A stretch of 33,089 bases of DNA from a virus. Of the stretch, positions 7,177-24,417 are shown in pieces. The stretch covers positions 1 through 33,089 of IMG/VR virus record IMGVR_UViG_3300008516_000039; one strand, 5' to 3'. The notes beneath the pieces are model-generated. The model searched no databases. It was not told where the DNA came from and saw nothing but the letters and a program-made list of their open reading frames with translations. Position 1 is the stretch's first letter. The number at the start of each line of letters is the position of its first letter. The translations under genes and the position numbers were made by a program.

Positions 7177-7434
7177 ATGGAAATGAAAAAGTATCGATGG
7201 GGATATGTGAAAAAGAGGATTGGTGAAACAGGGAACTTGGTGGGAAACGGTAATTTTGCAGAAAGGCCCTATATTGACCCAGAAGTGCAGGATGACGAGG
7301 GACACGCTGTTATGATTGATGACCAGGTAGTTTATTTGCCAACAGGTGCTATTATCACGGGGGTGATAGAAGACTTGCCTTTTACGGTTCTCCATTTTCT
7401 GGTTCCTGATGAGGATATAAAGATAAATGAATAA
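7177..7434 (+). CDS. Hypothetical protein
   Basis: An 85-residue protein after an AGGGGGAG ribosome site. It begins with a basic segment (MEMKKYRWGYVKKRIGETGN) and continues with short beta strands (HAVMIDDQVVYLPTGAIITGVIEDLPFTVLHFLV). Neither domain nor motif is recognised. Its end overlaps the start of the adenine methyltransferase gene by eight bases, so the two are translated from one message. Confidence 0.6.
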   Translation: MEMKKYRWGYVKKRIGETGNLVGNGNFAERPYIDPEVQDDEGHAVMIDDQVVYLPTGAIITGVIEDLPFTVLHFLVPDEDIKINE

Positions 7435-8047
7435 CCAAGACATTCTCGAACGGGTTAATCGGCTCAAGGAACAAATGGTGCAACAGGACAACCAGCCAAA
7501 GAGCCCTATTGTTGATTGGCCCCAAGGAAAATATCACACCATCTCAGCAGACCCTCCTTGGGATCTTCGTGAACTCGGTTACCAAGGATACGAGGCCACA
7601 GGTAAGAAATGGGGTATTCACGCTGGAATGTTCTATGACCTTATGACAACAAGGGAAATAGGTGGTCTTCCTGTTAAGGACCTGGCTGCAGATAACGCTC
7701 ATCTTTATCTATGGACAACCCATAACTTTATCGGGCCTGCGATAGAAATCATAGGTAAATGGGGATTCAAGTATAAGAGTTTACTCGTATGGGTGAAGAA
7801 ACCTGGGATGGGAATGGGTTACCATTTCCGGTATTGTACTGAGTTCCTGTTGTTCGGTGTTAGGGGCAGTTTAAGAACCCTTGTAAGAGACCAACGTGAT
7901 TTTTTCGAATCAGCGAAAATAGGACACAGCAGGAAGCCAGAAGTGGCTTATGAGATAATAGAAAGGTGTAGTCCAGGACCAAGGATTGAGTTATTTGCGA
8001 GAAACAAGAGGCCAGGATGGGATTCTTGGGGGAAGGAGATTGAATGA
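7427..8047 (+). CDS. MT-A70 family adenine DNA methyltransferase
   Basis: A 206-residue SAM-dependent N6-adenine methyltransferase of the MT-A70 type. The catalytic motif DPPW is at residues 42-45 (HTISADPPWDLRELG). Further family features are LPVKDLAADNAHLYLWTT, the segment VWVKKPGMGMGYHFRYCTEFLLFGVRG, and the C-terminal HSRKPEVAYEIIERCSPGPRIELFAR, which belongs to the cofactor-binding fold. Length and motif order fit the compact phage members. There is no restriction enzyme partner nearby, so protection against host restriction or marking of viral DNA for replication or packaging is more likely than a restriction-modification role. The start overlaps the upstream gene, and the stop overlaps the primase start. 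Confidence 0.9.
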   Translation: MNNQDILERVNRLKEQMVQQDNQPKSPIVDWPQGKYHTISADPPWDLRELGYQGYEATGKKWGIHAGMFYDLMTTREIGGLPVKDLAADNAHLYLWTTHNFIGPAIEIIGKWGFKYKSLLVWVKKPGMGMGYHFRYCTEFLLFGVRGSLRTLVRDQRDFFESAKIGHSRKPEVAYEIIERCSPGPRIELFARNKRPGWDSWGKEIE

Positions 8048-8796
8048 TGGATATGAGAGAGCAAATTGAACAGTATTTATCCTTGGGGTTTTCCCTGATA
8101 CCGTTGCAGCCAAGACAAAAAACTCCATTGGTAAAGTGGAAGACATTCAAACTTTCCGTGCTGGCCGTAGACTACTATCAGAAGAAGAATGCCAATTGGG
8201 CCATTCGTTCTGGTTTATTACCTTCCGGGGACTGGTTGTGGTTCCTTGACCTGGACAGAAAAGAGATGCTGGGTGAACTTTACAAGAAACATCCACCATT
8301 GAAATCTATGCCATTGGTGTCTACGAGTCACGGCTGGCATCTGTACGGCACCTGGAAAACAGAGCCCAAGACACAACACCTTGATGGTGTGGACATCATA
8401 TGTAACGGGTATGTTGTGGCTCCACCGAGTGTGCATCCTGATGGGCACATATACAAGTGGATTACGCCATTGAAAGGGGTACCCCCCACTTACAACCCGG
8501 GTTGGCTTGTCCCAGAAGCACAAAAACCAGTTATTGTTGCCCCTGCAGTGAGCAGCAGTTGGGAAACGGAGGAAGGATACATGTGGCAAGATAACTATAA
8601 AGGTGTCAGCGAGGGCAATAGACATAATCGGCTCATACAAATCATTGGTGCCCTTTGCGCAAATGAGAAGACTGAGAAACAGATACTGGATACTGTGATG
8701 GGGTGGAATAAGCGGAATGGGCCGCCCTTGAGGAAGGAGGAGATAGAAGAAACTGTAGAGTCTATGTATAGGGAGATGCTTGGGGGCACTCACTAA
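8044..8796 (+). CDS. PrimPol-type DNA primase/polymerase with C-terminal PriCT domain
   Basis: A 250-residue archaeo-eukaryotic-type primase. Residues 10-35 (YLSLGFSLIPLQPRQKTPLVKW) are the hallmark start of the bifunctional primase-polymerase family. Candidate metal ligands are D69 and D71 (FLDLD), with H99 in STSHGWHLYG and D117 in GVDIICNGYVVAPPSVHPDG as the other conserved active-site elements. Residues about 190-250 (SEGNRHNRLIQIIGALCAN ... EIEETVESMYREM) match the helical primase C-terminal domain often found after it. No helicase domain is fused and no helicase or DNA polymerase gene is present, so the virus must borrow the host replisome or a host helicase. It starts on ATGATG overlapping the methyltransferase stop. 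Confidence 0.9.
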   Translation: MMDMREQIEQYLSLGFSLIPLQPRQKTPLVKWKTFKLSVLAVDYYQKKNANWAIRSGLLPSGDWLWFLDLDRKEMLGELYKKHPPLKSMPLVSTSHGWHLYGTWKTEPKTQHLDGVDIICNGYVVAPPSVHPDGHIYKWITPLKGVPPTYNPGWLVPEAQKPVIVAPAVSSSWETEEGYMWQDNYKGVSEGNRHNRLIQIIGALCANEKTEKQILDTVMGWNKRNGPPLRKEEIEETVESMYREMLGGTH

Positions 8797-9711: not shown

Positions 9712-10167
9712 ATGGCTGGTGCGTGGGATACAGAAGATGAGATAACTGAGACGTTGCAGGAACGACTGACAAGGCTGAGAAGCAGTCTCATTGCTGATAA
9801 ACAGCCCTTCAAACAAGCTGCTACTCCTGCTTCTTGGAAACCAGGCCAATCCGGTAATCCCAATGGCCGCCCACCTAAAGCTTCCTGTGTTACGTCCGTT
9901 GCTAAAGAACTACTTGATAAACCAGCAGATCTCCCACCTGATGCACCTGATTTTATGGAGGGTTGGTCTTGGGCTAAACTCATCGCCTACAACTTCATTG
10001 TCAAAACTGCTAAAATTGATGCACCTATACTCAAAGAGTTCCTTGACCGCACAGAAGGTAAGGTGGTGCAGCCAGTCGAAGCCAGTGGAAAAGGTGGGGC
10101 TCCTCTGTTTGACATGAGTGTTCTGGTAGAGAAATTAAAGCAAATGGCAGGAGTGGAAGATGAGTAA
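9712..10167 (+). CDS. terS: Putative small terminase subunit (DUF5681-type)
   Basis: A 151-residue protein. It contains the signature WKPGQSGNPNGRPPK (residues 42-56) of the DUF5681 domain, common in proteins directly before the large terminase in many phages, and a later DRTEGKV segment (about 113-119) shared with small terminase-like proteins. The small subunit recognises the viral DNA and recruits the motor protein for packaging. ATG follows an AAGGAAAT site. It is the first gene of the late operon, behind the putative attenuator. The next start (10160) overlaps its end by eight bases. Role as TerS is supported by domain and position, not by a proven DNA-binding motif. Confidence 0.75.
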   Translation: MAGAWDTEDEITETLQERLTRLRSSLIADKQPFKQAATPASWKPGQSGNPNGRPPKASCVTSVAKELLDKPADLPPDAPDFMEGWSWAKLIAYNFIVKTAKIDAPILKEFLDRTEGKVVQPVEASGKGGAPLFDMSVLVEKLKQMAGVEDE

Positions 10168-10849
10168 TACTCCAATTGCTGGTAAGGTAACTCCTGAGAT
10201 ATTGGCCTTGATGAAAGAACTTAGAGCGTCAGGAATGTCTCAAGATGCAGTCAGTAAGCAGTTAGGTCTTTCCCGGAATACCATCCGGTATCATACTGAA
10301 CCAGGGAAGAAAGAGAGTGAGTTGGAAAGAGCTACTGCTAGGGGTATCCGTGCAAAATACGAGGCGTTCAGATTGCTTGGTAGCAAATGTATTCAGTGTG
10401 GGGACACCCGCCTGGAAATCCTTTGCATCAACCATATCAATGGTGATGGTGCGGAGGATGAATTTTCGGGCATAGGACAACTCATTTATCGAGCTATCTG
10501 TGCTGGAAAAAGGACCACAGATGGCCTCAATCTTCTTTGCCCAAACTGTAATGTTCTTCACGAATATGCTCTTGGTAGGCGGACAGGTGAAAGCCGGCCA
10601 GGCAAATTACATACTACTGTGATCAAGATGCTTGGAGGAGTATGTGTTAAGTGTGGATGTACTGACCTCCGCGTTCTTGAGGTTAACCATATAGATGGGG
10701 GCGGCAAGACGGAGTACCTCAGCAAGAGCAATCAAGCTTTTTACTGGAAAGTCTTCTATGGAGAAAGAACTATTGATGACTTGAATGTTATGTGTGCTAG
10801 CTGTAACGCATTATATGAGTATGAACGCAAGGCAGGACTTGTCCAATGA
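10160..10849 (+). CDS. HTH protein with two tandem HNH-like zinc domains
   Basis: A 229-residue protein between the terminase genes. Residues about 12-45 form a helix-turn-helix (ILALMKELRASGMSQDAVSKQLGLSRNTI). Two homologous units follow: C77-x2-C80, N91-H92 (INHINGDG), C127-x2-C130; and C162-x2-C165, N176-H177 (VNHIDGGG), C212-x2-C215. Each resembles an HNH or treble-clef nuclease core with its NH dipeptide between two CxxC knuckles, and the two units share ...LGGxCxxCG and LNxxCxxCNxLYEY elements. HNH proteins beside terminase genes are required for cleavage of cos DNA in several phages, so a packaging nuclease is plausible. A homing endonuclease is the alternative. It overlaps both neighbours (ATGA at the large terminase start). 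Confidence 0.75.
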   Translation: MSNTPIAGKVTPEILALMKELRASGMSQDAVSKQLGLSRNTIRYHTEPGKKESELERATARGIRAKYEAFRLLGSKCIQCGDTRLEILCINHINGDGAEDEFSGIGQLIYRAICAGKRTTDGLNLLCPNCNVLHEYALGRRTGESRPGKLHTTVIKMLGGVCVKCGCTDLRVLEVNHIDGGGKTEYLSKSNQAFYWKVFYGERTIDDLNVMCASCNALYEYERKAGLVQ

Positions 10850-12129
10850 CTACCGCTTCATTACTTGAACGTGCCGCTAAGAACTTCGGTGCTGAAAAGC
10901 TCGCTGAGCAGTTCTCACCTGAAGAGTGGCAGGCATTGAAGTATGAATGGTCTATTTGGGCGCGTCCTTCCCAACTTCCACCACCTGGTGATTGGCTCGT
11001 CTGGTTGATGTTGGCAGGACGAGGATTTGGAAAAACGCGCGCAGCTGGCGAATTCGTTATTGAAGAGGTTAAAGCTGGAAGAGCTAAGCGAATAGGGTTT
11101 ATTGCCAAGACGCCAGCTAATGCGCGTGATGTTCAGGTAGAAGGGGAGAGTGGTATTATGAATATCTCATCCCCTGATTTCATGCCGAATTATGAACCAT
11201 CCAAACGTAGACTTACGTGGCCTAATGGTGCACTGGCGACTATCTACTCCAGTAAAGAGCCAGCACATCTTAATGGGCCCCAGCATGACCTCATATGGAT
11301 GGACGAACTCCGTACATTCTACACTGCTCAAGAAGTCTGGGACATGGCCATGCTTGGTCTGCGTCTTGGTTCACACCCACGCTGTGTTGTCACTACTACC
11401 CCACTACCAACCAAGCTAATCAGAGAGCTCGTTAAGATGCCGGACGTTGTAATTACGGGCGGCACCACCTATGAGAACAAATCCAATCTTGCGGCCTCAT
11501 TCTACAGTCAGATAGTTAGCAGATACGAAGGCTCCAGACTTGGTGAACAAGAACTCCACGCTAAATTACTTGATGATGTTCCGGGAGCCCTCTGGTCCCG
11601 CAGCATCATCAACTACAAGCCGGCTCCAGATCTCGTACGCGTAGTGGTAGCAGTAGACCCAGCGGTCACTAGTAAGGATACGTCAGACGAAACCGGTATT
11701 GTAGCCGCTGGTCTTGGCATTGATGGTCAAGGATACGTTCTTGCTGACCGTTCAGCAAGAGTCAGCCCTTATGCTTGGGCTCGAAGAGCAGTGCAGGCAT
11801 TCAGCGATTTCAGTTGTGATAAGGTTATTGGTGAAGTCAATAACGGTGGTGAGTTGGTTGAAGTAACCATACGTACTGTCGATAAGAATATTCCATACAA
11901 AGCAGTCCATGCTAGCCGGGGGAAATATACACGTGCTGAGCCTGTGGCTGCGCTTTATGAACAAGACAGAGTGCATCATGTTAAGCCGTTCACAGAACTG
12001 GAAGACCAGATGTGTACATGGTTAGCTGAAAGTGGAGAATCCCCTGACAGGATGGATGCACTAGTATGGGCAATAACCGAACTGATGCTTAAAGAAGAAA
12101 AAAGACCACAGTTTCTGAGGATTAGATAA
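10846..12129 (+). CDS. terL: Large terminase subunit (packaging ATPase and nuclease)
   Basis: A 427-residue packaging motor. The Walker A motif is LAGRGFGKTR (residues 56-65) and Walker B is LIWMDELRTF (about 150-159), followed by a coupling motif in CVVTTTPLPTKLIRE. The RNase H-like nuclease domain begins at VAVDPAVTSKD with D272 as first acidic ligand, continues with IGEVNNGGE near 328-335 and ends with PDRMDALVWAI (about 400-410), whose Asp is the last metal ligand. All motifs expected for an active motor-nuclease are present and length is normal. It pumps DNA into proheads through the portal encoded next. Its stop overlaps the portal start. Confidence 0.95.
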   Translation: MTTASLLERAAKNFGAEKLAEQFSPEEWQALKYEWSIWARPSQLPPPGDWLVWLMLAGRGFGKTRAAGEFVIEEVKAGRAKRIGFIAKTPANARDVQVEGESGIMNISSPDFMPNYEPSKRRLTWPNGALATIYSSKEPAHLNGPQHDLIWMDELRTFYTAQEVWDMAMLGLRLGSHPRCVVTTTPLPTKLIRELVKMPDVVITGGTTYENKSNLAASFYSQIVSRYEGSRLGEQELHAKLLDDVPGALWSRSIINYKPAPDLVRVVVAVDPAVTSKDTSDETGIVAAGLGIDGQGYVLADRSARVSPYAWARRAVQAFSDFSCDKVIGEVNNGGELVEVTIRTVDKNIPYKAVHASRGKYTRAEPVAALYEQDRVHHVKPFTELEDQMCTWLAESGESPDRMDALVWAITELMLKEEKRPQFLRIR

Positions 12130-14186
12130 TGGTAATGAGTAAATTACGCAACAGGTTGGCCGGTGTAATTTCTGCCAAGGCAGACACTACAGTTCCTTTA
12201 AGCCCTTATCAGGTTCTGTCCATGCAGACTGCAGACGTCCCAGTTTATACTGATCTCACAGTGCGCAAAGCAGTCCGCGAGGGTTACAAGATCTCAGGTG
12301 ATGTTTATCGGTGTGTGCGGGAAATTGTACAGGCAATCTCAGGTATTCCGTGGGTGGTTCTCGACAAAGACGGCGAAGTTATCCCTAACCATGATTTCGC
12401 TAAGGTATGGGCACACCCTAACAAACAGTTCTCGGGGCAAGACAATATGGAGCTCATCGTTGCTCATCAATTACTCGTCGGCAACTCGTTAATCCAGCCA
12501 ATCATCGTAGGTAGTAGACCTCGTGAGTTCTGGGTTTGCATGCCTGACCTTATCCATCCAATACCATCAAGTAAGCCCGGTGAATGGCTCGCTGGTTATC
12601 AGGTAACTAGTGCAGATGGCACTCAGAGAAACGTGCCACCTGAGCAGTTTATTCACTTCATGTTGCTGGATCCTGGCAATCTTTATTGGGGAGTTGGGCC
12701 TCTCCAGGCCGCAGCCCGCACCGTCGATACCGATAATGAAGCTCAAGACACACAAAAAATATCGATGCAGAATCGTGGCATACCGGATGGTGTCTTTGAA
12801 GTAGAAAAACCCTCTGGAGAGGAGGACCATCTAACACCTGAACAATACGAGGAAGCAGACCGAAGAATCAAAGAACACTATCTCACCAAAGAAAAGAGGC
12901 GTATGCCTTGGGTAATAGCTGGTGGTAAGTGGCATCAGATGAGTTTAACTCCAGCTGAGATGGACTTCATCAAGTCTCGCCTCTCCAACAAGCGTGATAT
13001 AGCTGGCACATTCGGCATCAGTTCGATATTCCTTGGAGATATGGAGCATTCCAGTTATGCTAACATGGCAGAAGCAAGGAAAGCGCTATATCAGGATGTT
13101 GGTATTCCTATGCTTGATGATATTAAGAGTACTTTGAATCTTAGAATTGCCCCGATGTATGGTGAGGGTATTACAATCTCGTACGACGTATCTAAGGTAC
13201 TTGCATTACGGGAAGACCACAAGAAGCAGGCCGAAACGGGAAAGATGTACTTTGATATGGGTGTTCCTTTTGACCAGATAAATGAGAAGCTGGAAATGGG
13301 GTTCTCTGAGTTCCCAGGTTGGGATAGGGGATACTTACCGTTGAATTTATTGCCAACTGGCTCATCGGGTTTATCGGAGCCGGCGGCAGAAGGAATGAGC
13401 AAAGCCCTCAACATGGAAACCGAGGAGCAGAAAACGGCACACTGGAAACGCATAGATAGACGCAGAGTTGCTTGGTGGCAGGTCGTCGCGAAGAAAGTTT
13501 TACCGCTTTATGAAGCTGAATCTGCAGCAGTAGCAAAAGCCCTGAAGGATATTAAGGCAGTAAGATCCAAGGCCATGACGCCCCGTGATTGGGAAGAAGC
13601 ATACTCAGAGAATCCGCCTCATTGGGCTGTGGACTTAACGCCGTCGTTGTTTGCTCAGGAATTCACTGATGAGTTGACTGATAGGGTCTTCTTCAAATCA
13701 TTACTTGAAATCGGTTGCGGGAACGGCCGCGATTCAATCTTCTTCGCACGTGGAGGATTGGATGTAACGGCTATTGATGTGGCTCCTAGTGCCATCAAAC
13801 TCGCTCAAGAGAACGCGGAGAAGGCTGAGGTGTCGATTAACTTCAAGGTGGCTAATGCCGAGAAGTTACCGTTTGATGACGGTCAATTCGAGTCTGTGTT
13901 CTCCTTGTCTGTGTTACATGCCACTGACCTTCAGAAGTCTATGCCTGAGGTTAATAGGGTATTAAAGAAGGACGGGCTTGCATTTGTCTACATATACGGG
14001 GATACACAGTTTGCTGATGGCAAGCGAGATGAAGTTATCACCGAAGATGGCTATTTAGAGCTGGCCAAGGGTCTGAACTTCACTGTGCTCGACATATACA
14101 CTGAACAAGAGAAAAACTTTGATGAGTTTGGAGAGAAGCATTTGATAATCGTGTCATTACTGAAGAAAGCAGGAGAACCTGAATGA
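12129..14186 (+). CDS. Portal protein fused to a SAM-dependent methyltransferase
   Basis: A 685-residue fusion. Residues 1 to about 430 are a phage portal of the HK97/SPP1-like superfamily (SGDVYRCVREIVQAISGIPW, PGEWLAGYQV, PPEQFIHFMLLDP, then FIKSRLSNKRDIAGTFGIS). Residues 430-482 are helical (RRRVAWWQVVAKKVLPLYEAE). Residues 483-685 are a complete class I methyltransferase: MTPRDWEEAY start, motif I LLEIGCGNGRDS (E527-D535), acidic D550 in TAIDVAPSAI, NAEKLPFDDGQFESVFSLSVLH, and motif EVNRVLKKDGLAFVYIYG. The frame is continuous with no stop. The portal is the DNA channel at the capsid vertex; a methyltransferase is not a usual portal domain. An internal ATG at 13575 begins the methyltransferase but has no clear ribosome site. 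Substrate unknown. Confidence 0.9.
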   Translation: MVMSKLRNRLAGVISAKADTTVPLSPYQVLSMQTADVPVYTDLTVRKAVREGYKISGDVYRCVREIVQAISGIPWVVLDKDGEVIPNHDFAKVWAHPNKQFSGQDNMELIVAHQLLVGNSLIQPIIVGSRPREFWVCMPDLIHPIPSSKPGEWLAGYQVTSADGTQRNVPPEQFIHFMLLDPGNLYWGVGPLQAAARTVDTDNEAQDTQKISMQNRGIPDGVFEVEKPSGEEDHLTPEQYEEADRRIKEHYLTKEKRRMPWVIAGGKWHQMSLTPAEMDFIKSRLSNKRDIAGTFGISSIFLGDMEHSSYANMAEARKALYQDVGIPMLDDIKSTLNLRIAPMYGEGITISYDVSKVLALREDHKKQAETGKMYFDMGVPFDQINEKLEMGFSEFPGWDRGYLPLNLLPTGSSGLSEPAAEGMSKALNMETEEQKTAHWKRIDRRRVAWWQVVAKKVLPLYEAESAAVAKALKDIKAVRSKAMTPRDWEEAYSENPPHWAVDLTPSLFAQEFTDELTDRVFFKSLLEIGCGNGRDSIFFARGGLDVTAIDVAPSAIKLAQENAEKAEVSINFKVANAEKLPFDDGQFESVFSLSVLHATDLQKSMPEVNRVLKKDGLAFVYIYGDTQFADGKRDEVITEDGYLELAKGLNFTVLDIYTEQEKNFDEFGEKHLIIVSLLKKAGEPE

Positions 14187-14214: not shown

Positions 14215-14343
14215 ATGACAGTGATGATAGTGTTACATGCGGTCAGTTTCTTTGTTGGGGTGTTTGTCGGCAGTATCATATGGCACATATTAAAGGATAG
14301 AAAGCAGGAAAGCAAGAATGAACGAATGCCACGAAGCAGTTGA
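14215..14343 (+). CDS. 42-residue single-span membrane peptide
   Basis: A short frame beginning MTVMIVLHAVSFFVGVFVGS and continuing IIWHILKDRKQESKNERMPR. One hydrophobic helix of about 20 residues is followed by a charged tail. AAGGGAG lies about ten bases upstream of ATG. It overlaps the next gene by 26 bases in another frame. Position between portal and minor head genes is unusual for a membrane protein. Kept at moderate confidence on hydrophobicity, ribosome site and coverage of an otherwise empty gap. Confidence 0.5.
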   Translation: MTVMIVLHAVSFFVGVFVGSIIWHILKDRKQESKNERMPRSS

Positions 14344-14533
14344 AATCGATGGGCGCTACGTCTGCCAAGCAAAGAAGTGTCCTCACCGTGTGAAGGACGG
14401 CGGTTGTAAGCTCGGCAAAGTGAGCTTAGCCTGCAGTAACATCGCTTGCAACTGGAATAAAGCAGGCCGTTGTATATCCATGGATGTTATACTTGATGCT
14501 AATGGGAGATGTCAAGGAGCAGTGTACAAATGA
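14318..14533 (+). CDS. Cys-rich small protein, DUF1540-like
   Basis: A 71-residue protein with eight cysteines (residues 4, 16, 21, 30, 39, 44, 52 and 64). The C-terminal part, CSNIACNWNKAGRCIS...C, follows the pattern of the DUF1540 family (C-x3/4-C-x-W/Y-N-x4-C-x-A/S), small proteins thought to bind metal. The stop overlaps the next start (ATGA), so it is translationally coupled to the minor head protein. Its place between portal and minor head genes suggests it came in with the methyltransferase insertion, but this is inference. Confidence 0.65.
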   Translation: MNECHEAVEIDGRYVCQAKKCPHRVKDGGCKLGKVSLACSNIACNWNKAGRCISMDVILDANGRCQGAVYK

Positions 14534-15219
14534 AACTAAAGCTCGCGACAAAGCAATACAGGAGCAAGAACTCAGCTGAGTTGGTATTAGCCGTAGAGAA
14601 GGCAATAAAAGGACAGAGAGGAGACTGGGAAAAGCTGATGACGGCAATATTGGCTTCACTTATCGAGGACTTTGGCAACGAAATCGCTGAGGACCTGGGC
14701 GCTGAGACACCCAAAGCTGCACAAACACCGTTCTCGGAGGGCCGAAGGCCCGGAGAGGCAAGCAAAAGTGCGAAATGGGTATTTGATCCTGTAAGTGCGG
14801 CAGCCAGAGCGTGGATAATCAAGAACGGTGCTGCCAGCGTCAAGAGCATCCTGGACACCAATTTAGCCGATGTAAAACTCGTTATCTTGGCAGGGGTGGA
14901 CGAGAACTTAACTACCCCACAAATTGCTCGTAATATCCGTCAGTTCTATACAGACCAGTCAGCTGGTAAAGCAATGAGGGTAGCCCGCACAGAGGTATCA
15001 CATGCTGCAGGGTTTGGACAGCGGGAGGCTGCACGTCAATCAGGCGTTGTTAAGACCCACACATGGATTACTTCACGAGATGACCGTGTGCGTGATGCCC
15101 ACGCTGCTATGGATGGTGAGACAGTACCATTAGATAAAGCTTACTCGGATGGCTCCATGTATCCAGGTGAGCAAGATATTAACTGCAGATGTGTTGAAGC
15201 ATTCGGGACAGGGAGATAA
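14530..15219 (+). CDS. Minor head protein, Mu gpF-like
   Basis: A 229-residue protein. ATG 14530 is chosen because it overlaps the previous stop (ATGA) and follows AAGGAG; an in-frame ATG at 14509 lies upstream. The N-terminus is helical (ELVLAVEKAIKGQRGDWEKLM). The C-terminal region is the conserved head morphogenesis domain: ARTEVSHAAGFGQREAARQSG, KTHTWITSRDDRVRDAHAAMDGE and GEQDINCRCVEAF. These are the classic Phage_Mu_F motifs. The family is linked to portal assembly and is often fused to, or adjacent to, the portal. A GC hairpin element (14734-14756) lies in frame at about residues 69-76. Confidence 0.85.
   Translation: MKLKLATKQYRSKNSAELVLAVEKAIKGQRGDWEKLMTAILASLIEDFGNEIAEDLGAETPKAAQTPFSEGRRPGEASKSAKWVFDPVSAAARAWIIKNGAASVKSILDTNLADVKLVILAGVDENLTTPQIARNIRQFYTDQSAGKAMRVARTEVSHAAGFGQREAARQSGVVKTHTWITSRDDRVRDAHAAMDGETVPLDKAYSDGSMYPGEQDINCRCVEAFGTGR
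14734..14756. repeat. GAA-loop hairpin element inside a coding sequence
   Basis: CTC, GGA, GGGCC (14739-14743), GAA, GGCCC (14747-14751), GGA, GAG. The layout is an outer stem, 3x3 purine internal loop, GC core and GAA loop as at 8810 and 27156. It encodes SEGRRPGE within the linker before the conserved domain of the minor head protein, a place where an in-frame insertion would be tolerated. Confidence 0.55.
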
Positions 15220-15260: not shown

Positions 15261-16370
15261 ATGGCGGAACGCAAAACTGTCAAGTTTGAAGTCAAGCAGG
15301 TTGATGAGGACGCGGGTACCTTTGAAGGATATGCTGCCACCTTCTCCAAGAAGCCTGACAGTTATGGCGACATAATCGACAAGGGAGCTTTCACCAAGAC
15401 TCTCAAGGAGGCAGGCAACCGGGTAAAGATTCTTTTTAACCATAGCATCATGGAGCCTATCGGCAAGCCTACAGAGCTTTCAGAGGATGATAAAGGACTC
15501 TTCGTCAAGGGCAAACTGAGTCTCGGAGTCCAGCGTGCTCGTGAAACGCTGAGTCTTATGAAAGATGGTGTCATAACGGAGCTTTCATTCGGCTACGATA
15601 CAATGAAGGAGTCCTATCAAGGCGGCATCCGGCATCTCCAAGAGGTACGCCTTTGGGACACTTCACCAGTCGTCTTTGCTGCTAACCAGGAAGCTGTTAT
15701 AATGAGTGTTAAAGGGGCTACAACCTTCACTGATTTACCCCTTGCTGACCGAAGTCTTGCATGGGATGGTGCAAGAGCCGAACGACGAGTCCGGGCTTGG
15801 GCTGGCGGTGAGGACAACATGAACTGGAACAAGTATCGCCAGGCTTTCTTCTGGTATGATGAGGAAGACCCAGAACTACTTGGTTCATATAAGTTGGGGT
15901 TTGCAGACATCATCAACGCACGGCTTACTGCTATCCCGCGGGGCATATTCGCAGTTGCCGCAGTGTTGATGGGCGCACGAGGTGGTGTTGATATATCAGA
16001 GGCTGACAAGATGAAGGTCAAGTCACACGTCGAGAAATATTATGCTAAGATGGCCAAGGAATTCGACGATGATACTATAATAGCTCCTTGGAATAAAGCA
16101 GGAGCTGAACCCACAGAAGAAAAGACAGGCCGGGTGTTATCGGCAGCCAATATAGACAAAGTGCAAGCCGCGTTAAACGCTCTCCAATCACTTCTTGATG
16201 CAGCGGCAGAGGAGAATGACCCGGAGAAATCCAGTCATCTCTCGGAAGCTGTTAAGGAAGCCGAAGAACTGGAGGGAGTTGTGAGTGCACTGAAGGCAGA
16301 GAACGAAGGCTTTAGTACCAAAGAGGCAGAAGGCCGTATTGAAGCCATACTTGTCCAATTGAGGAAATAA
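15261..16370 (+). CDS. HK97-type prohead protease with C-terminal extension
   Basis: A 369-residue protein after a near-perfect AAAGGAGGTGA site. Residues 1 to about 155 are the S78 prohead protease: FEGYAATFSKKPDSYGDIIDKGAF, catalytic H61 in ILFNHS, catalytic S109 in ITELSFGYD, and LWDTSPVVFAANQEA. The enzyme matures the capsid by cutting scaffold and capsid delta domains. Residues about 165-290 (DRSLAWDGARAERRVRAWAGG, FFWYDEEDPELLGSYKL, ARGGVDISEADKMKVKSHVEKYYAK) form a domain frequently attached to phage head-maturation or structural proteins. The last 70 residues are a charged helical region that could serve as internal scaffold. It directly precedes the capsid gene. Confidence 0.9.
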   Translation: MAERKTVKFEVKQVDEDAGTFEGYAATFSKKPDSYGDIIDKGAFTKTLKEAGNRVKILFNHSIMEPIGKPTELSEDDKGLFVKGKLSLGVQRARETLSLMKDGVITELSFGYDTMKESYQGGIRHLQEVRLWDTSPVVFAANQEAVIMSVKGATTFTDLPLADRSLAWDGARAERRVRAWAGGEDNMNWNKYRQAFFWYDEEDPELLGSYKLGFADIINARLTAIPRGIFAVAAVLMGARGGVDISEADKMKVKSHVEKYYAKMAKEFDDDTIIAPWNKAGAEPTEEKTGRVLSAANIDKVQAALNALQSLLDAAAEENDPEKSSHLSEAVKEAEELEGVVSALKAENEGFSTKEAEGRIEAILVQLRK

Positions 16371-16387: not shown

Positions 16388-17587
16388 ATGGATCCAAAAG
16401 AACTTGCCGCATTAGTTCAGAGTGCGGTAGATGAACTCCATAAGGCAGTCGAGCGCCAAGATGGAGAGATTAAGAAGCTCGGCGCACCCACTGCTGAAAC
16501 GAAAGCAGCCATCGATAAAATCAATACTGACATCACTGCCCGACTGGATGAGATGGAAGCCAAGTATCAGCGCCAGACTATCCCGGGAGCCGGCATCGCA
16601 GAGCCCACCACTGAAGAGGCAAAAGCCCGGTCAGCTGCGTTCTTCAAGTACGTGAGAGGCGGCGTCACAGCCTTGAACCCGGATGAGCGGAAAGCCTTGG
16701 TGGAAAACGACGTTGGGCAGTATCTCATCACTCCAGAGTTGGAAATGGAGATCGAGCGCACTCTTCCCAAGATAACCGTCGTTCGCCCGTTGGCAACAGT
16801 CCGACCAATTGGTAAAGACCGGCTGAAGGTCCGGAGTATCAGTGAAGTCCAGGTCGGCTGGGGTAAACTCGAGACAGGTACACCCATTACTGAGGGTGGC
16901 GGGGTTCCTGGTGTTCCTACTTACCAGTATGCGGAAGACCTCTATGGTCTGGCCAAGATTGGTGAGGATGAACTCCAAGACAGCGATTTCAACCTCAACG
17001 CGCTTCTAGCCGATTCGTTCACTAGAGCAATTGGTGAGGCTGAAGACCTGGCGTTCGTTATCGGTACTGGCCACGATAATGAGCAGCCTATGGGTATCAC
17101 CATAGATCCTACCCTTATTCTTGGCCAGACCGATGTAGCCACAACCAACGTGGCTCTCATAGAGGAATACATGGCAGTGATGTATGCCTGCCCTGCCCAA
17201 TACCGCAGAAACGGCTCCTGGGTTGTGAACTCAGCTACTGAGCTCCGCCTGAGGCAGATGAGGGCCGTTGACGGTGCAGGAACTGAGTTTGGTACATTCC
17301 TGTGGCAGCCTAGTCTGATAGCAGACAAACCCAACACCTTCCTAGGTCACCCGATATACAACCAGGACGATATAGCGGCTATTGCTGGTGCGGCCAATGT
17401 AATCGCTATCTTCGGAGACTTCAAAGCCGGTTACCGGGTTATTGACCGGCAGGGTATTACCCTCCAGAGACTGGTTGAGCTCTACTCCGAGGAAGGGTTG
17501 GTCGGCTTCAAGGTCCACAAGAGGGTTGGTGGTGGCGTGATAAAGGCAGCGAACAAACCGTTCGTACTACTGGCCGACATAGCATAA
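16388..17587 (+). CDS. Major capsid protein, HK97 fold
   Basis: A 399-residue capsid protein. Residues 1-75 are a charged coiled coil (LVQSAVDELHKAVERQDGEIKKL) acting as a delta/scaffold domain, probably removed by the upstream protease. The folded part starts near YVRGG and contains TLPKITVVRPLATVRPIGKDRLKV, EDELQDSDFNLNALLADSFTRAIGEAEDLAFVIGTG and a typical C-terminus, YRVIDRQGITLQRLVELYSEEGLVGFKVHKRVGGGVI. This order (N-arm, E-loop, spine helix, P domain, A domain) is standard for the family. ACGGAGGT precedes ATG. A hairpin follows the gene. Confidence 0.93.
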   Translation: MDPKELAALVQSAVDELHKAVERQDGEIKKLGAPTAETKAAIDKINTDITARLDEMEAKYQRQTIPGAGIAEPTTEEAKARSAAFFKYVRGGVTALNPDERKALVENDVGQYLITPELEMEIERTLPKITVVRPLATVRPIGKDRLKVRSISEVQVGWGKLETGTPITEGGGVPGVPTYQYAEDLYGLAKIGEDELQDSDFNLNALLADSFTRAIGEAEDLAFVIGTGHDNEQPMGITIDPTLILGQTDVATTNVALIEEYMAVMYACPAQYRRNGSWVVNSATELRLRQMRAVDGAGTEFGTFLWQPSLIADKPNTFLGHPIYNQDDIAAIAGAANVIAIFGDFKAGYRVIDRQGITLQRLVELYSEEGLVGFKVHKRVGGGVIKAANKPFVLLADIA

Positions 17588-20272: not shown

Positions 20273-20857
20273 ATGTTCTCACTGGATGAAGGCGAGGTAA
20301 AGCTATTCAGTAAGTATTATGGCAGGAATGACCTTGTCCAGGATGAGGAATTCTGGCAGGATGTTTATGCCTACTACGTTCTGGAAGTCCATAATGCACC
20401 TCTGCCTATGGAGTATAATCCTTCCACGCTCAGGATAGTGAAGGAAATGCTAGTTTGTCCGCCTGGTGTATGTGGCAAATGCTGTTACTATAATCATGTT
20501 GAGCTCCACGATTATGACATCAGGCGGATAACAGAAAACACCGAATATACAAAAGAGGACTTTAAGAAGCTAATAACGGTAAAGGATAACAAGACAGTTA
20601 TGAGTGCTGCTGGTGGTTGTCCTTTCCTCAAGGATAATGCCTGCACGATATACGAATTCAGACCAGATGCTTGCTGGATGTTCCCGTTCAGCGGTAAGAG
20701 CATGATGATTGGGAATGTGCAGGTGAAGCAGATGCAGATAAGGATTAAATGTGAACCGGCGTTGGCAGTAGCGAGGAAGGTGATTACAGAGGTGATGAAA
20801 GATAAAGATAAAATATTACTCCCTGATTTGACGATAATTCCCAAGGTGGAGAAATAA
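20273..20857 (+). CDS. YkgJ-like Cys-cluster (Zn/Fe-chelating) protein
   Basis: A 194-residue protein. It carries the YkgJ-type cluster C62-P-P-G-V-C67-G-K-C70-C71, followed by C116 (AAGGCPFL), C124 (DNACTIYEFRPDAC) and C134 before a W-x-F-P-F motif. Members of this family bind zinc or an iron-sulfur centre and some act as metalloenzymes or metal-handling proteins; most are uncharacterised. The C-terminal 60 residues are helical and charged. It is translated with the large repeat protein (TAATG overlap). A metal-cluster protein between structural genes suggests a role in modifying or assembling a virion component; this is inference. Confidence 0.8.
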   Translation: MFSLDEGEVKLFSKYYGRNDLVQDEEFWQDVYAYYVLEVHNAPLPMEYNPSTLRIVKEMLVCPPGVCGKCCYYNHVELHDYDIRRITENTEYTKEDFKKLITVKDNKTVMSAAGGCPFLKDNACTIYEFRPDACWMFPFSGKSMMIGNVQVKQMQIRIKCEPALAVARKVITEVMKDKDKILLPDLTIIPKVEK

Positions 20858-23800
20858 TGCCCAATAATAGGGTCATCATAAACCCTAACTTCAAGAGTAA
20901 TGGTGAGTTCCACAGAAGCCTGAAAGCTAGAGGTGTTGGAGCCAAGGACTTTCCCAACAGCCATTCTGAAGTTGTATACCTCGGCAATGGGAAGTTTGGT
21001 GCGTCTATTGGCATCGGTCATAAAGTATTCTTCGATAAGGCTGACGGTAATAAGCCCAAGAAGCACAAGCTCACCGATGAACGCCCAACCAAGGATTATG
21101 TCCTGATTCAGGGAGCTAAATGCTGCACTGAGGTTCATCCTTACTACGCCAAGTATTTTGATACCCAGCACGAAGAGGTCAGGCTATATGAGGAACGCTG
21201 GGTAGTCCAGAGGCTCTTCAAAGCGCCTGATGAATGGCGTGATGTGGATTCATATAATCCTGTTATGTCAGTTGAGGAATATTCTGAGTCTACTGGTGAT
21301 GTAATGAAGGTCAGTATCGTAAGTGATACTGACTATGGCACCTTAACAGTTGAATATTTCCAGAGGGATGGCAATAACCTCAAGCACAATGTCTACTTCA
21401 CTAATACCTCAGGTTCCACTGGGACTTTCAGAGTGGTGCAGAGATGGGCGGGTATAGTTGGAGATAAGGTTAATGGCAAGGATTATCCTCTGATTACCGA
21501 TGAGTCAGTTCTTAACTTCCGCAAAGCCGATGGGAAGCTATCTGTAGCTGAAAATCTTCGCTCAATGATGTTCAACCCCGATGGCTCAGAGAAGACGGAG
21601 AAGTGTCTTCAGAGACCTATCAGTATTGAAGCTCACGCTCAAGGAATGAAGGCTGATTTTATTTATGCTCAGTGGGTTCTAGTTCAGAATGAGAGTTTGG
21701 AGATTGACCCTGGCACAGCAACACTAGATAACCCAACAGAGGATGGTGATATCCGTGACGCTACGGCTAGGGACAATAGTGACACCTATATATATATGGC
21801 TTATACCGTCCAGAAGCATAGAGCATATGTGGAATGGGATGTTTCAGGAATAGATGATGGTGCAATAATCACCAATACAGTTTTTAAGTACCACGGTGGT
21901 CCGTGGCATGCTAATGGTTATAAGTCGGACTGCCATATTAATGAGATACTTGGAGCAAGACCATCTACTTCTAGTAATGCAGACCTTTGGGCCGAAATCG
22001 GAGAAGGAACCACTTATGCTAGCCCAGATGGATTCCCTGTTGTTGCTACTAACCAGCAAGTAGACTTGGGTGCTTCGGCGGATGCAGACCTCCAGGCTCA
22101 ACTTGCTGTTAACAACTGGTTCGGGATTGGGATACAGCTCGATGATGAAGTTAGCTGGAGTGGAGCAAGTTACTCTGGTATTCGTTCTGAGGAATATGCT
22201 ACTCCTACCCCTCCACCAACTCTCTATGTGGAATATACAGCACCACCTACAGTCACCACTGAAGCAGTAGATGACATAGCTGCTACCACAGCCACAGGCA
22301 ACGGTACCATTACTGCTGGTGCACCTTGCGACAAGAGGGGAATAGTCTATGACTTAGCCACACATGGTGACCCTGGCGATACTGCTCCCGCAGTTTCGGA
22401 TTATGGTGATTATGAAGAAGAAGCTAACGGATTCGGTACTGGTGTGTTTGACCGACCTCTAACAGGTCTTACTGAAGTAACCACATATTATGCCCGTGCC
22501 TATGCTCATAACTCAGAAGGCTACGCCTACGGTGACGAGGTCAATTTCAGGACTCTGTTCACCCCTCGTTCAGGTACAGCTTTACTTGGGGAGAAGGGAA
22601 CAGCTACCAGAGTTGGTACACTGGTTAGAGCTGATGAAGCTTCACTTGGTTTGTTATCAACAGGAAGCAGAGCAATAGTTTATACTCCACGGTCAGCCAC
22701 AGCATTACTGGGGTTGCTGTCGACAGGTGCGAGAGCAGTAGCTTATGACAGGGTTGAGACCGCTCTGTTAGGCTTGAAAGGCACAGCTACTAGAGTCCTT
22801 GTCCTCACTAGAGGGAATTCAGCACTCTTGGGTCTGCTGGGAGCAGGTGTCAGAGTATTGACATTGATAAGGGCTGATACAGCCCTACTCGGTCTGAAAA
22901 CTACAGGATTGAAGTATCTTGTATTTACCTTCTCAGCTACCGCATTGCTTGGACTGAAGACTACTGGTGTAAGAACAATTGTGTTGAGTCGAGCCGATAC
23001 TGCCCTGCTCGGTCTCAAAGGCACAGCCACACGGGTACTTGTCCTCACCAGAGCAGATGATGCCTTGTTAGGATTGAAGTCAACTGGTGCAAGAGCAGTG
23101 GCTTATGCAAGAACAAATACAGCCTTATTGGGATTGAGAACTGCGGTTTATATAGCTCCAGCCGCTGAAACCTTAAGACCAAATGCTGCTGGGGATGAGA
23201 CAGCTCTTGCTAAAAGTGGATTTGGTGGTGCGAACTGGGATAGGGTAGCCGAAGAATTTCCTGATGATGGTGACACTTATGTTTATGCTCAGTCAAAAAC
23301 CTATCGACGTGACCTATACAATGTTGAGCCTCACGCTGCGGGTAGTGGTATTATAAACTTCATTAAAGTTTACAGTCGATGTTATGGTGCATCTACTAAT
23401 AATTCAGATGTCGTGATTACAATCAAGTCAGGAACTGGGGCTGGTGACCCTGACACTATTGGCGAGTCTGACGAGAACAGCTTGCCTTGGGGTTGGGCCG
23501 ACGATTCTTTCCAGTGGAACACAAATCCTGCCACTGGTTTAGCTTGGACCTGGGACGAGATAGACAGGTTACAAATAGGTATAGCCTTACGAGAGACTGA
23601 GTATGGATGGGACACAAGATGTACTCAGGTCTATGTTGAGGTTGATTACGGGGAAGAGGGAGCACTGAGAATCCTAGTATTAAATCGTGCTAGTTCTGCC
23701 CTGCTAAGTCTGAAAACTACAGGCGCTAAAGTCCTCACACTTATTCGTGGGGCTACCGCAATACTCGGATATACTCCTACTGGTGTTCGGGTTCTTAAGC

Positions 23801-24417
23801 TTATTCGTACAGCTACTGCGTATCTGGGTCTGAAAACTACTGGCGTCAGAACAGTGGTATTAACTAGAGGAGAGACTGCTCTGCTGGGATTGAAAACCAC
23901 TGGTGTTAGAGTGCTAACACTCATACGAGCCAATACTTCTCTTCTTGGATTAAAGACCACAGCGACCCGAGTCCTCGCGCTGATTCGTGGGGCGACAGCC
24001 TTACTCGGATTTGACCCGACTGGTGTAAGAGTTCTCAAACTTGTCCGCACAGCTACCGCGTATTTAGGGTTGAAAACAACAGGAGTTAGGGTGGTTGCTT
24101 TTTCGAGGGTTGCCACAGCTCTACTTGGACTGACGACAACTGGGGTAAAAGTAGCCAATTTCATAAGGTCGGCCACTGCATTACTCGGATTAGCATCCAC
24201 TGGTACAAGAGTCCTGGTATTAACCCGGATTGCTACTACTGTCTTACTAGGATTACTAACTACCGGCAAGAAAGTCTGGATAGTTGGCCGTATACATCTA
24301 GTATCACGAGCTTATGCTCTGGGCAAAAGCATGGTAAGGTATACACTGGGCAGAAGTCGAGACAAATATACCCTGGGAAAAAGCAAGGACCATTATGACT
24401 TAGGGAGGATGAAATAA
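20857..24417 (+). CDS. Large modular repeat protein, putative fibre/adhesin
   Basis: A 1186-residue protein. Residues 1 to about 280 form an unassigned N-terminal module (PNSHSEVVYLGNGKFGASIG; VEYFQRDGNNLKHNVYFTNTSGSTGTF). Residues about 285-470 resemble a DNRLRE-like beta-sandwich (VQKHRAYVEWDVSGIDDGAIITNTVFKYHGG). Residues about 470-567 are fibronectin type III-like (PPTVTTEAVDDIAATTATGNGTI, LTEVTTYYARAYAHNSEG). Residues 571-768 hold ten 20-residue repeats (RADTALLGLKTTGVRVLVLT-like), 769-933 an LRPN domain shared with the tail hub, and 935-1144 ten more repeats. The end has short YTLGKSKD-like repeats. This looks like an exposed adhesion fibre, but its location between head and connector genes is odd; head fibre or tail fibre both remain possible. 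Confidence 0.8.
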   Translation: MPNNRVIINPNFKSNGEFHRSLKARGVGAKDFPNSHSEVVYLGNGKFGASIGIGHKVFFDKADGNKPKKHKLTDERPTKDYVLIQGAKCCTEVHPYYAKYFDTQHEEVRLYEERWVVQRLFKAPDEWRDVDSYNPVMSVEEYSESTGDVMKVSIVSDTDYGTLTVEYFQRDGNNLKHNVYFTNTSGSTGTFRVVQRWAGIVGDKVNGKDYPLITDESVLNFRKADGKLSVAENLRSMMFNPDGSEKTEKCLQRPISIEAHAQGMKADFIYAQWVLVQNESLEIDPGTATLDNPTEDGDIRDATARDNSDTYIYMAYTVQKHRAYVEWDVSGIDDGAIITNTVFKYHGGPWHANGYKSDCHINEILGARPSTSSNADLWAEIGEGTTYASPDGFPVVATNQQVDLGASADADLQAQLAVNNWFGIGIQLDDEVSWSGASYSGIRSEEYATPTPPPTLYVEYTAPPTVTTEAVDDIAATTATGNGTITAGAPCDKRGIVYDLATHGDPGDTAPAVSDYGDYEEEANGFGTGVFDRPLTGLTEVTTYYARAYAHNSEGYAYGDEVNFRTLFTPRSGTALLGEKGTATRVGTLVRADEASLGLLSTGSRAIVYTPRSATALLGLLSTGARAVAYDRVETALLGLKGTATRVLVLTRGNSALLGLLGAGVRVLTLIRADTALLGLKTTGLKYLVFTFSATALLGLKTTGVRTIVLSRADTALLGLKGTATRVLVLTRADDALLGLKSTGARAVAYARTNTALLGLRTAVYIAPAAETLRPNAAGDETALAKSGFGGANWDRVAEEFPDDGDTYVYAQSKTYRRDLYNVEPHAAGSGIINFIKVYSRCYGASTNNSDVVITIKSGTGAGDPDTIGESDENSLPWGWADDSFQWNTNPATGLAWTWDEIDRLQIGIALRETEYGWDTRCTQVYVEVDYGEEGALRILVLNRASSALLSLKTTGAKVLTLIRGATAILGYTPTGVRVLKLIRTATAYLGLKTTGVRTVVLTRGETALLGLKTTGVRVLTLIRANTSLLGLKTTATRVLALIRGATALLGFDPTGVRVLKLVRTATAYLGLKTTGVRVVAFSRVATALLGLTTTGVKVANFIRSATALLGLASTGTRVLVLTRIATTVLLGLLTTGKKVWIVGRIHLVSRAYALGKSMVRYTLGRSRDKYTLGKSKDHYDLGRMK
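22567..24290 (+). repeat. Two arrays of ten 60-bp (20-residue) repeats around an LRPN domain
   Basis: Array A spans about 22567-23160 and array B about 23662-24290. Each unit encodes a pattern R-x-x-T-A-L-L-G-L-K-T-T-G-V-R-V-L-x-L-x. Most units are 20 residues; a few are 21. In array B the pair RGATAILGYTPTGVRVLKLI plus RTATAYLGLKTTG occurs twice, four units apart, showing a duplicated block. The units are too diverged in DNA to be a recent expansion of a single unit. Alternating hydrophobic residues suggest a beta-solenoid or beta-hairpin stack. Confidence 0.85.

Follow-up and report, generated by a model that had tools for sequence, protein, structure and literature searches.

The window analysed here is a 33,089-nucleotide stretch of viral DNA (IMG/VR record IMGVR_UViG_3300008516_000039), and the features of its portal region are listed in Table 1. 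Immediately 5' of the terminase gene is an HTH plus HNH-endonuclease-like ORF (10160-10849), and further upstream an MT-A70 adenine methyltransferase (7427-8047, E 1e-22) is followed by a Prim-Pol primase (8044-8796). Downstream, a cysteine-motif protein (CGKCC..., 20273-20857) lies amid structural genes and is like the YkgJ type by eye only; it is followed by an ORF of 1186 aa (20857-24417) in which imperfect 'TALLGLKTTGVRVL'-type repeats are numerous and for which neither Pfam nor PHROG gives a match.

Table 1. Features of the portal region, in window coordinates.
Feature	Position	Strand	Basis or remark
Terminase large subunit, directly 5' of portal	10846..12129	+	Pfam Terminase_6N/6C
HK97-type portal body, residues 1-431 of the fused ORF	12129..13421	+	Pfam PF04860, NCBIfam portal_HK97, AlphaFold2
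Long linker helix, residues 432-478 ('TEEQKxxHWKRID...KAL')	13422..13562	+	AlphaFold2 helix; alignment with relatives
Class I SAM-dependent methyltransferase, residues 482-685	13572..14183	+	Pfam, AlphaFold2, Foldseek, alignment A10
Small 42-aa ORF with hydrophobic stretch	14215..14343	+	Read from sequence
Cysteine-rich ORF of ~70 aa	14318..14533	+	Family A9; weakly DUF1540-like
MuF-type minor head protein (ORF from 14509)	14530..15219	+	Phage_Mu_F 1e-14
Prohead protease (S78)	15261..16370	+	Pfam PF04586 2e-28
HK97-fold major capsid protein	16388..17587	+	Pfam PF05065 1e-45

Portal and methyltransferase are encoded by one uninterrupted frame (12129-14186, plus strand) of 685 aa without a stop. 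Residues 58-379 match Phage_portal PF04860 (E 5e-52; 177.5 bits against a curated Pfam cut-off of 39.1), and the NCBIfam model portal_HK97 (TIGR01537) is matched with 123.5 bits against a cut-off of 112; the curated domain threshold, the portal fold and the gene order terminase-portal-protease-capsid are all those of an HK97-type portal. The second domain begins at about residue 482 (MTPRDW) and matches Methyltransf_11 over residues 526-619 (E 7e-22, exceeding the curated Pfam cut-off). It contains EIGCGNGRD (E527), D550, FDDGQFESV and RVLKKDG, the first two being invariant or nearly so across the 20-member methyltransferase alignment A10, and it has the GxGxG of motif I, the acidic post-I residue and the full Rossmann fold of the class I SAM-dependent methyltransferases. 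An AlphaFold2 model of the fusion, computed from a 33-sequence alignment, shows a portal body, the 432-478 helix and the fold of a class I methyltransferase; pLDDT is ~80-90 in most of the core, and the links at residues 411-429 and 475-496 have low confidence. Because the pTM is 0.45, the relative placement of the two domains is not predicted by the model. With this model Foldseek finds the GTA portal 6toa (E 2e-18) and HK97 portals, as well as the methyltransferases 2p8j (E 2e-11) and 6mro. A first-pass annotation, made from the letters alone, had claimed that the portal frame runs on into a complete class I methyltransferase with the motifs named above, and had proposed structure prediction as a check; the claim holds, and both folds are present in the predicted structure. 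Body fold and gene order are as for the known HK97-type portals (GTA 6toa, HK97 8cez), to which the window protein adds the C-terminal linker helix and the methyltransferase. Portals form a dodecameric ring at the vertex; twelve methyltransferases per vertex are an assumption from portal biology.

The same fusion occurs in L001, L002, L012 (=L013), L014 (=L015), L048 and L073, which are independent metagenome contigs; L001 is 79% identical to the window across the entire fusion. Since the identical architecture recurs in independent contigs, for which chance is negligible, the frame is no assembly slip. The first-pass annotation had accepted that a missed stop, a frameshift or the production of separate polypeptides would overturn it. 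An internal start is available in the window, where there is an ATG at residue 482, and separate portal and methyltransferase products could be imagined on this account. However, the frame is identical in many contigs, and 12 distinct fused loci (L001, L012 and ten further) lack any of the start codons ATG, GTG and TTG within 14 codons of where the domain begins; in those loci only the fusion can be made, because there is no standard start at the junction. Split products, or an artefact, are thus barely credible. Most other fused loci have a Met five codons 5' of the conserved Trp, mostly without a good Shine-Dalgarno sequence; in the same comparison of start regions the free-standing copy L111 has AAGGAGGT. 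To judge from this comparison, the Met at -5 is a fossil of a once separate gene. The fusion is under strong purifying selection, with dN/dS of about 0.05 for the two closest pairs (0.056 for the window and L001, 0.048 for L002 and L012).

In close IMG/VR relatives (L003, L004, L005, L007, L008, L010 and many more) portal and MuF form a single ORF. The corresponding profile, phrog_2662 (portal-MuF, 717 positions), is matched by the window's portal ORF over positions 19-532 and by ORF 14509-15219 over positions 540-704, and the linker at residues 432-478 aligns with the stretch linking portal and MuF in insert-free relatives (L003, L004, L005, L049, L050). A cassette of methyltransferase and cysteine-rich ORF therefore sits at the portal-MuF joint, where, as this comparison shows, it was inserted in the lineage of the window. 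In the window MuF is encoded by an ORF of its own (236 aa), whose ATG overlaps the stop of the cysteine-rich ORF; on these alignments it derives from the C-terminal half of an ancestral fusion of portal and MuF, has been displaced and now has its own start. This interruption, and the move of MuF to its own ORF, had been overlooked in the earlier picture of the locus.

Two insertion points are observed, one after the linker helix (window, L001, L002, L014, L048) and the other before it (L012, L073). Mapped on the portal tree, presence of the methyltransferase requires six changes, of which at least four are forced by well supported branches. The portal of L002 is 96% identical to that of L038, in which MuF is found at that point and the methyltransferase is not. 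The methyltransferases of L002 and L012 are 93% identical, their portals are 70% identical, and their insertion points differ, which shows that the cassette moves horizontally. Other insertions were seen in these genomes: the MuF gene of L012 (6821-8498) is split by an HNH-type homing endonuclease ORF (7306-7956), and inteins with a LAGLIDADG-type endonuclease lie in the portals of L078 (662-3970) and L134 (2116-5799), the latter of which also has the methyltransferase. The C-terminal end of an intein, probably in the terminase, lies just 5' of the L010 portal gene (1-288), and zinc-ribbon-like cysteine segments occur in the portal linker or prohead protease of L007 (2655-4829), L010 (298-2409) and L004 (3551-4450); the linker of the portal has the look of a hot spot for insertions.

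The cysteine-rich ORF beside the methyltransferase was absent from the first-pass annotation. A search with this protein found 44 contigs, in all of which the methyltransferase is directly upstream; this count includes near-duplicates, and there are 36 distinct methyltransferase-Cys pairs, the window included. The gap between the two genes, +132 in the window, ranges from -90 to +10 across the remaining 35 pairs; the 42-aa hydrophobic ORF is additional DNA that none of the other cassette copies compared has. The two proteins are co-inherited (Mantel r 0.45, with none of 2000 permutations as high), and the small one, second gene of the putative module, would be translationally coupled to the methyltransferase. 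Its family (A9, 32 members) has no Pfam match above cut-off, and its AlphaFold2 model (pLDDT 48) is too poor for interpretation or fold search. The cysteine-rich protein would most likely bind zinc and serve the methyltransferase as cofactor or partner. A purely works-like analogy may be drawn with the zinc activators of the Trm112 type, also small zinc-ligand-rich proteins paired with a class I methyltransferase.

Searches of IMG/VR extend the family well beyond the lineage of the window. An exact-pattern scan with GCGxGRDSIFFAR found eight contigs, seven of them portal fusions already found and the eighth L093, in which a very distant HK97-type portal carries the same methyltransferase followed by the same cysteine-rich ORF. 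A methyltransferase-side search gave 51 family members, sharply separated, truncated copies aside, from generic methyltransferases by profile E-values (<1e-44 against >1e-17); the cysteine-rich ORF follows in every member whose contig extends past the domain, L172 excepted. Both searches combined give 55 contigs from 31 metagenomes, which rules out an accident confined to the window. Among the 36 distinct pairs, 26 have the methyltransferase fused to an identified portal. The fused portals are of the HK97 type, PF04860 (the window lineage and L093 among them), Phage_portal_3, PF06381 (L105, L116, L129), Portal_Mu, PF06074 (L108-L110, L113, L114, L107) and phrog_10963 (L097); L107 alone joins portal, MuF and methyltransferase, with MuF in between. 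An S78/head-protease domain is the carrier in L139; in L117 the methyltransferase is the C-terminus of a protein of at least 1990 aa and in L172 it lies inside one of at least 1972 aa with a HEIGH metallopeptidase-like motif. Separate methyltransferase ORFs lie directly between a phrog_10963 portal and MuF in L102, L112 and L125; in L124 the gene follows a portal, unfused, and in L111 it is free-standing. Three of the 36 pairs (L098, L128, L115) are without carrier assignment. In their tree the methyltransferases do not sort by carrier but are mixed (9 changes, minimum 5); this tree was drawn with L129, a Phage_portal_3 carrier, labelled HK97. The profile search of viral metagenomes that the first-pass annotation had suggested thus yields several portal families, and a recurrence on unrelated head proteins that it had missed.

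Among 50,697 GenBank phages the module was found neither at the DNA level nor by the cysteine-rich protein, and only generic methyltransferases (26-38% identity) appeared. A cellular origin was also considered; a single scan of genome contigs gave only generic methyltransferases (22-27%). In L124 (5059-5120) and L173 (3120-3180) the motif 'GGVGSGIRGH' lies near the start of post-portal ORFs and resembles 'GGPGSGNYGHxGRPG' junction motifs.

As to the substrate, DNA had been one of the three targets first proposed. On this reading the domain would methylate phage DNA as it passes the portal and protect it from restriction. The location at the DNA channel would suit this, and DarB of P1 is a precedent for a DNA methylase in the virion (Iyer et al. 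2017, PMC5512222). Against it, the place of motif IV reads FSLSVLHAT, with no [DNS]PP[YFW] or PC motif, the fused methyltransferase has no target-recognition domain or any other extra domain, and its best PDB relatives are non-DNA methyltransferases of the small-molecule/protein type. Lack of motif IV together with these relatives disfavours DNA as the target. The phage, moreover, already has its separate MT-A70 adenine methyltransferase, and packaging far outpaces methyltransferase turnover. We therefore hold DNA modification to be very unlikely. A PADLOC match to mad2 was taken as generic class I similarity.

The nearest families are TPMT, TehB and UbiE, i.e. small-molecule methyltransferases. 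The domain shares the SAM-binding core and fold of the Methyltransf_11/25 and TPMT/TehB-like enzymes (6mro, 2p8j), but has signatures of its own (W-x(3)-Y...HW at the N-terminus, fDE-x-GEKH at the C-terminus) and nearly always the cysteine-rich ORF. This kinship could mean that a metabolic or resistance methyltransferase of the TehB/TPMT type landed beside a portal by chance and became fused, the Met at -5 being a relic of its free-standing start. Such a passenger would not be expected to be carried by four or more portal families as well as a protease, nor to be paired so constantly with the cysteine-rich protein, and we think this origin unlikely. That one enzyme has been grafted repeatedly, on all these portal families and on the protease, shows selection for an enzyme at the portal place.

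The window may be read as one copy of a mobile two-gene module, consisting of a methyltransferase fused to the C-terminus of a head protein and a small cysteine-rich protein. Portal, prohead protease, portal-MuF and giant polyvalent-type proteins would all be expected inside the procapsid, and since the carriers share this location and not sequence, the fusion most likely serves to put the enzyme into the virion, in the capsid interior next to the portal vertex. What it does there can be envisaged in two ways. One is that the anchored enzyme modifies portal, MuF, scaffold, capsid or terminase within the procapsid during assembly, with the cysteine-rich protein as activator and the fusion concentrating enzyme at substrate. 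The module is nearly always at or beside a portal gene, whatever the portal family, including the unfused copies between portal and MuF (L102, L112, L125); the strong purifying selection and the co-inherited small partner (Mantel r as above) are also as such a role would have it. The methyltransferase is, however, also found in giant polyvalent-type proteins. No essential assembly step can depend on it, since most close relatives assemble without it and at least four changes on the portal tree are forced. An assembly role is a possibility, though a rather doubtful one.

The other, which we prefer, is that the module would be an effector carried in the virion, with a host target on which it acts early. 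The domain might be cut free by the prohead protease or a neighbouring metalloprotease, or be exposed at the vertex during ejection, and would then, as infection begins, methylate a protein or a small molecule of the host. The preference arises because other effector enzymes, polyvalent proteins and MuF toxins occupy the same places. In L102 a MuF with an ADP-ribosyltransferase toxin lies beside the module (phrog_3895, 5e-16), and in L054 (7050-7562) the portal-MuF has a C-terminal acetyltransferase-like extension (phrog_3810, E 0.006, a weak match); Pizza beta-propeller matches of L054 were left out of account. A different C-terminal portal extension is found in L059 (6264-6815) at the junction used by the methyltransferase in L012 and L073; it is ADP-ribosyltransferase-like by eye, with weak support from phrog_16619, and the contig ends inside it. 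Directly after MuF in L001 (8853-9356) and L012 (8498-9019) is a HELGH/HELAH metallopeptidase-like ORF, a candidate releasing protease. On the other side, ejection of a portal-anchored domain would need cleavage, for which a site was not found; the family shows conservation and no diversification and, unlike polymorphic toxins, has no immunity-type neighbour; portal anchoring is not essential, as shown by the unfused copies in L102, L112, L125, L124 and L111; and the unvarying link to the portal region is just as compatible with a role in assembly. The effector reading is given about an even chance.

Enzymes joined to head proteins have been described before: portal or MuF proteins occur with a PBECR RNase or a 2H phosphoesterase as fusion partner (Iyer et al. 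2017, PMC5512222), and MuF toxins are known (Jamet et al. 2017, PMC5576092), so that this kind of arrangement has precedent. As in the polyvalent proteins (PMC5512222), a head protein of portal-terminase phages bears an enzyme domain; disparate domains share one polypeptide in the portal-methyltransferase and in L172, where the family lies inside a giant protein, and metallopeptidase-like ORFs occur near the module in L001 and L012. In contrast, the methylases of polyvalent proteins are adenine-DNA methylases with SNF2 helicases, while the window enzyme is of the Methyltransf_11 type, has an obligate cysteine-rich partner and belongs to a family carried mostly on portals; as set out above, it has neither of the two features, motif IV and a target-recognition domain, by which a DNA methyltransferase is recognized. 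With the MuF polymorphic toxins (PMC5576092) the module shares the position directly after the portal, and in L102 it has such a MuF-ADP-ribosyltransferase as neighbour. The window differs in that its MuF is short and separate, not one polypeptide with a toxin, the enzyme is on the portal, its sequence is conserved and no immunity gene was seen. The first-pass annotation knew of no comparable portal. This stands in so far as no description of a portal-methyltransferase was found in the open-licence literature searched; it does not stand for enzymes on portal or MuF in general. Enzymes on head proteins are thus known as a class, and the methyltransferase module with its cysteine-rich partner appears to be new.

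Taken as a whole, we think it rather probable that this is an undescribed, widespread and mobile virion module, in which a methyltransferase and its cysteine-rich zinc partner are grafted by uncultured tailed phages on any protein of the inner portal vertex, so that a non-DNA methyltransferase would be delivered or displayed there to act on a conserved host or virion target. Sequence handles for finding it are GCGNGRDSI, GEKH and MDVHLDADGKC. Portals are among the most conserved parts of the virion, and the module would enlarge the known set of enzymes carried in virions by a methyltransferase that is not of the DNA type and has an obligate partner. The question that it raises is whether a host or a virion protein may be methylated by a phage from within its capsid.
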